From Gemmatimonadota bacterium (lineage in GTDB: Bacteria; 4572-55; J002), in the NCBI GenBank assembly GCA_003697105.1, contig RFFQ01000084.1, positions 1 to 5,660 of the forward strand: a stretch of 5,660 nucleotides of DNA. The letters are read 5' to 3'. The position numbers and the translations under genes are program-made. Of the stretch, positions 1,883-5,660 are shown one piece after another. How positions within the stretch are numbered: the stretch's first letter is position 1; every line of letters begins with the position of its first letter. The notes under the pieces were generated by a model. It ran no database searches. It had not been told where the DNA came from and saw only the letters and a list, made by a program, of their open reading frames with translations.

Positions 1883-1955
1883 AAGCAATGACTTAAAGTA
1901 AATTATTAAGTCTATCCTTGGTGAGAAATCTTATTTGAACAAGAGGCGCCCAATC

Positions 1956-3989
1956 ATGCAACCTATTCACGTGTACAAATACGTCCAATCAGATTCACGA
2001 AACGGCATCTTATTTTGCCACACAGACCCGGGAGAGCGTAACGATAGCCAATCCACGGTGGTCCTGGTGAAAAGCAAAAATACAGATCGCGTGCATCAAA
2101 TTGCGGCGATCATCGCGTACCGCACCTTTTTGCAGGAATATTATTCCATGCAAGTAATTCGTACCGGTAAATCACGCATAGATGCGGCGCTCCGGGCGAT
2201 CAACACTGCCTTGCACCGATTTTATACGATCAACAAAATTAAAGAGCCTGCCGATATTCACCTCTGCGCCATCACGCATGACCGCAATCGTGTTGCCACC
2301 TTCAGTAATAACGGGTTTATGGTGGGTACCCTACGGCATCAAATATTTCAGCGAGTGCCTACCACCCCTCACACCGTGATGCCGCGCTTTGGGGAGTCCC
2401 GCGATGAGATATTTGAAAGTGCAGTGACCCCGCTTCGTAATGGCGATCTGATTTTTGTCGCCTCTCATAAACAACTGGAAGATATACTCCGGGAAAAAAT
2501 TCAACAGGATACCGGAAAAGACCCAATTGGTGCGATTTTCAACGGGCTGGATCCGAAAATCGATGAGCTAAATGCCGATCAAAATCTCGCTTTGGTGGCG
2601 TTAAAAGTGACGGAAACCGTCACTAAAGTGGCTCCCCCATTCGTGACGGCGTCAATACCGGTCCAAAAACATTCCCCTTTCAAAAAGCATAAACCGGCTA
2701 AGCGACGAACCCTCCAGTTACCGAAATTTTCATTGCCCCGTATCCCTTTGCCGGAACGCCCCCAATGGACGATACCGGAGGCATTCCGTCCCCAGATACA
2801 ACAGTGGGGGATAATTGGTATGAGTGCCATGATCATACTTTTAGTTGCGGTTATGGCAATCCGCACAGCGGCAGAACGAACAACAGGGGACCCAACCCAA
2901 ATTGCCGGACTTTCCACGAGCCCGCCCGCATCCTTTTTAGATACACCTGTGTCTCGATCTGACCCACCTCCAGCCCAACACTCCGAACCTGCTGTAACCG
3001 TACCGGCTTATAATCCGGGTGAAGAAATATGGGTATATGGGGCACCGAAATCCGTTTCTTCCTCACCCATTGTGCGCCATGGCAATGTGTATGTGGGTTG
3101 TAAAGATAATTATTTGTATGCCCTGGACTATCACACCGGAGAAATCAAGTGGCGGGTGAAAACTGGTGGAGGCATCGGTTCCTCACCGGCAGTTTCGGGA
3201 GACCGGGTGTATGTGGGGTCTTACGATGGGTATCTTTATTGCGTTCAAGCCGTTCGTGGGGATGTCCTTTGGAAGTTCCGTACCCAAGAAAAGATTGTCT
3301 CTTCACCGGTGGTTCATCAGGGTTTAGTCTATATCGGATCATTTGATAACACTCTTTATGCGATTCGTGAAAGAGACGGACAACAACAGTGGAAGTTTTC
3401 TACCAAAGGGGATATCTGGGCAACCCCGGTTGTGGATGCAGAAAAGGTCTATCTTGCCTCTTTTGATGGCTTTGTGTATGCCCTCAATCGGGAGGATGGT
3501 CAGTTAGAATGGAAATATCAAGTCGGGGACGAAATTTATTCTTCCCCCGAAATTGTGGGACAACTTCTATTTTTGGGGTCGCGTAACCACTATTTGTATG
3601 CCTTGAGCACCATTGACGGGAAAGAAATGTGGAAATTCAAGACCAAAGGTAAGATTTATGCCTCGCCCAAAGTGTGGAATGGCATGGTGTATGTGGGTAG
3701 TAACGCGGGTATTTTCTATGCCGTGGAAGCTGTTAGCGGCGCGGAACAGTGGCAATTTAGTCTAGGTCGGGAAGTCCCGATCCGGAGTCGAGCCACCATT
3801 GAGGGAGGTGTGGTTTATTTTACAGCATACGATCATTATCTGTATGCCGTGGATGCTTATTCGGGGAATCTACTCTGGAAATATCAAGCGGATAGCGAGA
3901 TTTATTCCTCGCCAGCGATTGCCGGAAACCGATTGTACTTCGGGTCTTTAAACGGCACGTTGTATGCTCTCAATGCGGCAACCCCTTAA
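1956..3989 (+). CDS. Degenerate PP2C-like domain, one transmembrane helix and PQQ-type eight-bladed propeller
   Basis: The product is 677 residues. Residues about 10-225 look like a PP2C (PPM) phosphatase fold: a helical stretch (DAALRAINTALHRFY, 76-90), a GD-like step (PLRNGDLIFVAS, 159-170) and a closing strand (DQNLALVALKV, 208-218). The usual metal-binding aspartates are missing; S-D-G is S-H-K here, so catalysis is doubtful. A basic, proline-rich linker (243-282) precedes a transmembrane helix at about 284-303; by the positive-inside rule the N-terminus is cytosolic. Residues 355-677 carry seven full PQQ/BamB-like repeats (Y-V/I-G-S-x-D-x-x-L-Y-A-x, then G-x-x-x-W-K) plus half repeats at each end that close an eight-bladed propeller, predicted to be outside the inner membrane. 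ATG at 1956 has AGAGG nine bases upstream; TTG at 1935 would add seven residues. It may be a signalling or scaffold protein. Binding of PQQ itself is not implied. Confidence 0.85.
   Translation: MQPIHVYKYVQSDSRNGILFCHTDPGERNDSQSTVVLVKSKNTDRVHQIAAIIAYRTFLQEYYSMQVIRTGKSRIDAALRAINTALHRFYTINKIKEPADIHLCAITHDRNRVATFSNNGFMVGTLRHQIFQRVPTTPHTVMPRFGESRDEIFESAVTPLRNGDLIFVASHKQLEDILREKIQQDTGKDPIGAIFNGLDPKIDELNADQNLALVALKVTETVTKVAPPFVTASIPVQKHSPFKKHKPAKRRTLQLPKFSLPRIPLPERPQWTIPEAFRPQIQQWGIIGMSAMIILLVAVMAIRTAAERTTGDPTQIAGLSTSPPASFLDTPVSRSDPPPAQHSEPAVTVPAYNPGEEIWVYGAPKSVSSSPIVRHGNVYVGCKDNYLYALDYHTGEIKWRVKTGGGIGSSPAVSGDRVYVGSYDGYLYCVQAVRGDVLWKFRTQEKIVSSPVVHQGLVYIGSFDNTLYAIRERDGQQQWKFSTKGDIWATPVVDAEKVYLASFDGFVYALNREDGQLEWKYQVGDEIYSSPEIVGQLLFLGSRNHYLYALSTIDGKEMWKFKTKGKIYASPKVWNGMVYVGSNAGIFYAVEAVSGAEQWQFSLGREVPIRSRATIEGGVVYFTAYDHYLYAVDAYSGNLLWKYQADSEIYSSPAIAGNRLYFGSLNGTLYALNAATP
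3021..3986 (+). repeat. PQQ-type propeller repeats, about 40 codons each
   Basis: The repeat cores begin near residues 378, 418, 458, 498, 538, 578 and 620, with a final half repeat near 660. The unit is a strand Y-V-G-S, then D-x-x-L-Y-A, then G-x-x-x-W-K-(F/Y), then SSP. DNA similarity persists between units, for example recurring TTTGTATGCC-like strings before each A-(L/V) pair. The opening EEIWVYG and closing LYALNAATP supply the two halves of the last blade. Confidence 0.85.
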
Positions 3990-4249: not shown

Positions 4250-5005
4250 TTACTTTTGAGTGTTTTGACCCGTAGGAGTTACTTCCTCCACCCGACCATA
4301 GGTACGGACTTGCACCGATTTTTGCGAACCATCTTTATTTTTGAGATTCGTGATCGGAATGTTGATAAAACCACTCAAAATCCGGCGATCCATGTTTTTA
4401 GGGTGAAATGTTCCCGTTATTTTCATGCTTTCACCGGGTTTCAGTTCGGTTTTTTCGATCACTACTTTCAGATCGGCACTGGGGGAAACCGGCTCTCCCA
4501 ACTGAATCGTCTTTTGGGTGCGGTTTGTCAACGTAACTTCTGCCGTTGCTTCCGTCCCAACTTTTACCAATTGAAAGTTTAAATACGAAGGACTCACATC
4601 ATACGGAACAATGACCGTCCCTTCCATCGCAAATTGAAACGACGGATTGTCCGGATCGTTCGTCGTAACCGTAATCGATTTTCGTTGATGGTTTTTCTTA
4701 TGAGCTGTTTTGAAGGTTGCCGTAATTTCTCCAACCCCACCGGGGTGGATTTTGTCAGCCGAAGCCAACGCTGCGGTACACCCTCAGCTGCCTTTGACGT
4801 TGAAGATCTCTAACGTATCGTCACCGGTGTTTTTGAAGCGAAAAATATGCGTGACATTTTCGCCTTCCATCACCTCACCGAACTTATAGGTGACATCACC
4901 TACCGGTTCGAATTTAGGAGCGGCAACACCGACAGAGACGACCGCAAAGACCAGCACTAAGCAGAGCAAGCCGGTAATCCCAGCGCGAGCGATGCTGTGC
5001 TTCAT
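4250..5005 (-). CDS. Candidate exported DUF1573 selenoprotein with in-frame UGA (Sec74)
   Basis: Read through one UGA (4784-4786), the product is 251 residues. Residues 1-28 are a signal peptide. Residues about 33-133 match the DUF1573 Ig-like fold: FGEVMEGENVTHIFRFKNTGDDTLEI, in pieces 42-66, then KGS-U-GCTAA (71-79), then IHPGGVGEITATFKT and ITVTTNDPDNP. Residues about 136-240 form a second beta-sandwich of similar kind. In DUF1573 proteins the central motif is usually S-C-G-C-T; here the first Cys codon is UGA, giving Sec-Gly-Cys. There is no frame change and no other stop. ATG at 5003-5005 is chosen because GAGGAG (5015-5020) is nine bases upstream; the ATG at 5014 abuts that site. A UxC pair in an exported protein would suit a thiol redox role, but that is inference. 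The alternative is a pseudogene by TGY to TGA mutation. Confidence 0.75.
4743..4786 (-). promoter_or_regulatory. SECIS-like stem-loop directly after the UGA
   Basis: Counting U of UGA as 1, GGGUG (4-8) can pair with CACCC (40-44) to form a lower stem. GUUGGC (18-23) can pair with GCUGAC (28-33) around UUCG. If the inner pairs open, the apical loop is eight bases and begins with G, 18 bases after the UGA. That fits the general bacterial SECIS layout (loop about 16-37 bases from UGA with an early G). A CCCC-GGU-GGGG hairpin further down competes with the lower stem. Folded by eye only. Confidence 0.5.
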
Positions 5006-5014
5006 GATAAACAT

Positions 5015-5020
5015 CTCCTC
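5015..5020 (-). promoter_or_regulatory. Ribosome binding site that decides the DUF1573 start
   Basis: GAGGAG on the minus strand directly abuts the ATG at 5014, which is too close to serve it. It is nine bases from the ATG at 5005, where the signal peptide begins. Confidence 0.7.
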
Positions 5021-5182: not shown

Positions 5183-5660
5183 TTACCGGAGTAACACCAT
5201 TGATTTCATCTGGATTGTCTGCTCCGTTTGCAATTGAGACACATATACCCCCGATGGGACTGCCATACCCTGCGCATCGTTGCCGTTCCACTCCACCGTG
5301 TGATACCCGGCTGGGGTGGATTCTTGAATCAGCGTTGTGACCAAGCGCCCGTCAATGGTGTAAATCGAAAGATTCACGTTCGCCTCGTGGGGTAAGTCAA
5401 AGCGGATGGTGGTTTTGGGGTTAAATGGGTTCGGATATGCCGCATAGAGTGTGATCTGTTGCGGCACGGCGACCGTCTCCTGAATCCACTTGACCGGCTG
5501 TTCGTTGATCTGCCCGGAGCGGATCGCCAGATTGGCGAGATTCCCCAAACGGAGCAAATCGGGGGTGGTTAGGGGTGTCACACCGAAGGCACCGACCCGC
5601 CACTGATTTTCGACCCGATTGATTGCCAGTTGCCAATTTGCCGGCACACTGGGGGCGAGG
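5183..5660 (-). CDS. C-terminal end of a secreted protein with FlgD-like/type IX-style sorting domain
   Basis: The frame is open to the right edge, so the N-terminus is outside the window; 158 codons are visible, ending in TAA at 5183-5185. The last 80 or so residues begin with AAYPNPFNPKTTIRFDLP. They continue with NLSIYTIDGRLVTTL, then AGYHTVEWNGNDAQG, PSGVYVSQLQ and a final MKSMVLLR. This is the classic FlgD-Ig-like C-terminal domain, often annotated as a Por/type IX secretion sorting signal in Bacteroidota and related phyla. The preceding stretch (NWQLAINRVENQWRVGAFG, then LLRLGNLANLAIRSG) resembles the end of a cohesin-like beta-sandwich, which is tentative. The protein is expected to be secreted or surface-bound; its main function lies off the window. 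The gap to the next gene (5006-5182) holds only that gene's signals. Confidence 0.88.
   Translation of the reverse strand, partial: LAPSVPANWQLAINRVENQWRVGAFGVTPLTTPDLLRLGNLANLAIRSGQINEQPVKWIQETVAVPQQITLYAAYPNPFNPKTTIRFDLPHEANVNLSIYTIDGRLVTTLIQESTPAGYHTVEWNGNDAQGMAVPSGVYVSQLQTEQTIQMKSMVLLR

Follow-up and report, generated by a model that had tools for sequence, protein, structure and literature searches.

An in-frame UGA in a DUF1573 gene from an uncultured bacterial lineage, probably read as selenocysteine in a member of a known selenoprotein family

On the minus strand of the window (the whole stretch of 5,660 nucleotides that was analysed), a gene runs from an ATG at 5005 to a TAA at 4252–4250, and the sole stop between the two is a TGA at 4786–4784. 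This raises two questions. First, does the TGA mark a gene that has been broken, or is it read as selenocysteine (Sec)? Second, if Sec is inserted, does the gene represent a new selenoprotein family, as an earlier note on this DNA had claimed? The stretch corresponds to contig C154 in a genome of 4.18 Mb and 199 contigs that is 96.9% complete. The features of the gene and of its transcript are the following.

5015–5020, minus strand: Shine-Dalgarno-like GAGGAG, 9 nt upstream of the ATG, read from the sequence
4250–5005, minus strand: putative DUF1573 selenoprotein gene, 251 amino acids with UGA taken as Sec
4919–5005, minus strand: predicted signal peptide, residues 1–29 (MKHSIARAGITGLLCLVLVFAVVSVGVAA), assigned by eye; helix at residues 2–23 in the structural model
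4613–4891, minus strand: DUF1573 / Ig-like (PapD-like) domain 1, residues 39–131, across the UGA (Pfam PF07610 and PF22544; predicted structure)
4784–4786, minus strand: in-frame UGA, read as putative Sec74 in S-U-G-C-T
4778–4780, minus strand: retained Cys76 of U-G-C, codon TGT, invariant in alignment A2
4754–4769, minus strand: candidate SECIS hairpin H2, GUUGGC-UUCG-GCUGAC, weak (−5.0 kcal/mol), at the site of the hairpin common to most TGA-type relatives
4730–4749, minus strand: second candidate hairpin with a GGU apical loop, UCCACCCC-GGU-GGGGUUGGA, −10.2 kcal/mol
4280–4609, minus strand: second Ig-like (PapD/ASH-like) domain, residues 133–242, from domain search and predicted structure

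An alternative start at ATG 5014 would lengthen the product to 254 residues. The peptide around the putative Sec is KGS-U-GCTAALAS, with U at residue 74 of 251 and S-U-G-C-T spanning residues 73–77. The match to DUF1573 (PF07610) continues unbroken over the UGA and scores 105.8 bits, above the gathering cut-off of 26.1. The earlier description of two same-frame open reading frames that are parted only by TGA and share one DUF1573 domain, with the TGA at the first Cys of S-C-G-C-T and the second Cys kept, therefore holds. Elsewhere in the window, a plus-strand gene (1935–3989) encoding a 684-residue protein with a PQQ/BamB-like β-propeller at its end is convergent with the DUF1573 gene. Upstream of the latter, the minus strand (5183–5659) encodes the C-terminus of a larger protein, which carries a FlgD-Ig / Por secretion sorting tail, and a DNA methylase gene (PF01555; 2–292, minus strand), of which the N-terminal portion is present, runs off the contig.

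The codon used by relatives at this position bears directly on the first question. A scan of named species genomes could favour neither Cys nor TGA, since its peptide pattern begins downstream of the codon in question. The single protein found no match as a contig-search query, and the loci were recovered with an aligned set of sequences in which X took the place of Sec. The proposed check for homologues with Cys or UGA aligned at residue 74 comes out positive without exception: over 34 homologous loci, the aligned codon is TGA in 17, TGT or TGC in 17, and anything else in none. The 17 TGA loci stem from independent assemblies of many phyla, and all of them lack a further in-frame stop, with 60–364 codons open downstream. 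Their record titles name Cloacimonetes 4572_55, an uncultured Desulfobacterium, several Deltaproteobacteria/Thermodesulfobacteriota, KSB1 and CSSED10-310, as well as Gemmatimonadota, Acidobacteria and Spirochaetes.

Among the nearest matches of a 98-genome survey, TGA was found at exactly the motif in G001, G002, G059 and G078 besides the source genome, and a more distant genome of the same survey, G040, has U-A-C there. The two surveys overlap, loci L056, L060, L062 and L070 of the 34 apparently being those of G001, G078, G002 and G059, respectively. SelA is present in six of six TGA-form genomes, the window's included, versus a strong SelA match in 44 of the 98 overall (p = 0.007). In the tree, the window gene is sister to L056, another TGA form (support 97/94), and the Sec label is clustered, with 3 Sec/Cys changes versus 10 in shuffles. 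In several Sec-type relatives, a small sample, the adjoining genes (TPR/BamD-like, SSB, BshC, T2SSF, TetR) reveal no conserved context.

These data allow one alternative to be weighed, namely that a nonsense mutation, or a sequencing error, truncated a Cys-type DUF1573 gene. The stop does split the gene in the standard code. However, the same codon is TGA in all 17 of the independent assemblies above, with no other in-frame stop; L056, the closest relative, likewise has TGA; and the half downstream of the UGA is conserved and folds well in the model. Given the codon pattern of the 34 loci together with the tree, a nonsense mutation private to this gene, or a miscalled base, can thus not be the main explanation, in agreement with the earlier judgement that chance was unlikely to have placed the stop here, and we consider a pseudogene or error very improbable.

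Some of the loci encountered differ from the window gene in arrangement or motif. L040 (1234–3312, minus strand) encodes a 694-residue protein with Peptidase_C39-like and DUF1573 domains and the variant motif T-U-A-C-T, in which Gly is replaced by Ala. In the CSSED10-310 genome (G078, C12:68099–69677), L032 and L060 form an adjoining pair of Sec-type DUF1573 genes, both with U-G-C-T-A. The DUF1573-like L051 of genome G019 has C-P-C at the motif and an in-frame TGA far downstream, which is probably a real stop or a frameshift; no SelA match was found in its genome.

Decoding of UGA as Sec calls for a dedicated machinery, and the selA, selB, selC and selD genes, the search for which had been proposed, are all represented in the source genome: a tRNA-Sec with UCA anticodon (found by both ARAGORN and Rfam), SelB (383.8 bits), SelA (488.8 bits) and SelD (355.9 bits). 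The SelD gene itself contains one in-frame TGA, within ACAGU-ASK, where SelD proteins are known to carry their catalytic Sec or Cys; given this active-site position, UGA appears to be read as Sec in a selenium gene of the genome itself. SelD of this genome (L018, C12:941–1864, minus strand) would thus itself be a selenoprotein, and a CCAGG-GGU-CCUGG hairpin follows the motif. Two other genes of the genome, L013 and L019, terminate in TGA, so that UGA also serves as a stop, and internal TGA is absent from SelA, SelB and others. No TGA forms were found among the molybdopterin and AhpC/TSA family genes of the genome, and further selenoproteins besides SelD are therefore unproven there. The genome also carries a Cys-type DUF1573 paralogue, L024, with the motif TECGCT.

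Could the UGA stand instead for an ordinary amino acid, through a code change to Trp or Gly, or be suppressed by another tRNA? From a frame left open by TGA alone the inserted residue cannot be told, but the non-TGA codons at this site always specify Cys and never Trp or Gly, the source genome possesses the tRNA-Sec (UCA) with SelA, SelB and SelD, and both the termination of L013 and L019 in TGA and the lack of internal TGA in SelA, SelB and others speak against a general reassignment; we find this reading harder still to credit than a broken gene. As for two separate proteins, a short secreted one ending at the UGA and another started from an internal TTG, a TTG-start frame of 172 codons is indeed present downstream, but the break would fall mid-fold in an Ig-like domain, the downstream piece would come without a signal peptide and relatives with the Cys form make one undivided protein, which leaves this the least probable reading of all.

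We return to Sec insertion and to the RNA that might direct it. Most TGA-type genes have in common a hairpin, CUUUGGC-NUCN-GCCAAAG, whose 5′ arm lies 14–20 nt after the UGA. Paired hairpin cells amount to 84.8% in the TGA alignment A3, with compensatory changes, versus 47.3% in the equal-sized Cys alignment A4, for a structure that was derived from the same sequences on which it was scored. Three TGA rows are left out of A3: L084 as a near-duplicate, and L056 and L040 because their sequences fail to align with the hairpin. On the TGA set, RNAalifold did not choose H2 and picked a different, weaker structure. The bSECIS model asks for a loop of 3–9 nt with G within its first two positions, a stem of 4–16 bp, a distance of 16–37 nt after the UGA and an energy of at most −7.5 kcal/mol; PMC13188914, which states the model, also notes that certain SECIS elements of bacteria depart from it. 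Neither hairpin of the window fits this model cleanly: H2 lies at a fitting distance with an energy of −5.0 kcal/mol, and the loop of the GGU hairpin is 42 nt after the UGA, past the usual 16–37 nt. The hairpin after the SelD UGA of the source genome likewise falls outside the bSECIS filter. Downstream of the UGA, the window RNA is about as stable as its shuffles (z about −0.1 to −0.9), and an Rfam scan of the window returned no match to a SECIS family, only a sub-threshold sRNA match. Judging from the alignments, a hairpin 3′ of the UGA tends to be usual in TGA-type genes and mostly missing from Cys-type ones, and the version in the window gene is weak.

The complete Sec machinery, the exact Cys/UGA pairing in the 34 loci and the recurrent downstream hairpin together are the reason for reading the gene as a selenoprotein, and on these sequence data the decoding of the UGA as Sec, which the earlier note had put forward, is strongly supported. 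Very probably, then, the gene encodes a genuine selenoprotein, an exported two-domain Ig-like DUF1573 protein carrying Sec-Gly-Cys. The tRNA-Sec and SelB would decode the UGA as selenocysteine, and the stem-loop directly 3′ of it would assist.

In the AlphaFold model of the read-through protein (mean pLDDT 93.5), there are two Ig-like β-sandwich domains, and Sec-Gly-Cys sits between strands 65–72 and 76–80. Fold relatives are HYDIN-type axonemal domains, the Ig domains of VesB and VesC, Porphyromonas 2qsv and PapD-like chaperones (Z about 9–12.7); VIA-align puts VesB, VesC, 2qsv and axonemal chains at Z about 12. What is shared with the HYDIN/CFA65/VesB-like Ig and PapD-like (ASH/MSP) domains, Pfam PF22544, is the fold only, a likeness that addresses neither function nor the Sec-Gly-Cys motif. 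A phmmer search against PDB sequences returned no match. We infer a periplasmic or envelope Sec-Gly-Cys redox protein. In the cell envelope, Sec74 and Cys76 are probably joined reversibly as a selenenylsulfide or else act as a site for a soft metal or metalloid, and an envelope protein of one of these two kinds is the role that we favour. A tentative proposal, which we think rather unlikely, goes further: with Sec-Gly-Cys, the Ig-like/PapD-like domain of the envelope would become an enzyme or chaperone of an uncharacterised type that uses its selenol for redox chemistry or for handling metals, present in several phyla and swappable with a Cys form.

As to the second question, the family is not new. 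Two reviews list a 'DUF1573 domain-containing protein' (PF07610, motif UGC) and credit it to Zhang & Gladyshev 2007, from the Olavius algarvensis delta symbiont (PMC9312934, PMC13188914). Compared by description, the Olavius symbiont protein has the same PF07610 domain, Sec first in U-G-C and Cys forms in relatives. The hosts differ, the source genome belonging to the class of the MAG 'Candidatus Cloacimonetes bacterium 4572_55'. The best NCBIfam match of the window protein is NF041425, 'OS_HP2 family (seleno)protein', at 97.6 bits (domain positions 4–97 of 98), which is 2.4 bits short of the curated cut-off of 100; we therefore call the protein OS_HP2-like and do not assign it to NF041425. 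Its relatives score similarly, with exactly 100 for L056, 94.1 for L061 (Sec) and 94.7 for L057 (Cys). Presumably OS stands for Olavius symbiont, and we take NF041425 to be the same family as the DUF1573 UGC selenoproteins. The gene is thus a further member of the OS_HP2-like DUF1573 selenoproteins with a UGC motif, on record since 2007, and the earlier claim of a new selenoprotein family has to be given up, as none is added here.

Standard annotation would call the gene truncated, which the Sec reading corrects. With it, the little-studied DUF1573 selenoprotein family now reaches a deep uncultured lineage, and the 17 further Sec forms, together with the 17 Cys forms, make a useful set for working out the role of the DUF1573 U-G-C.
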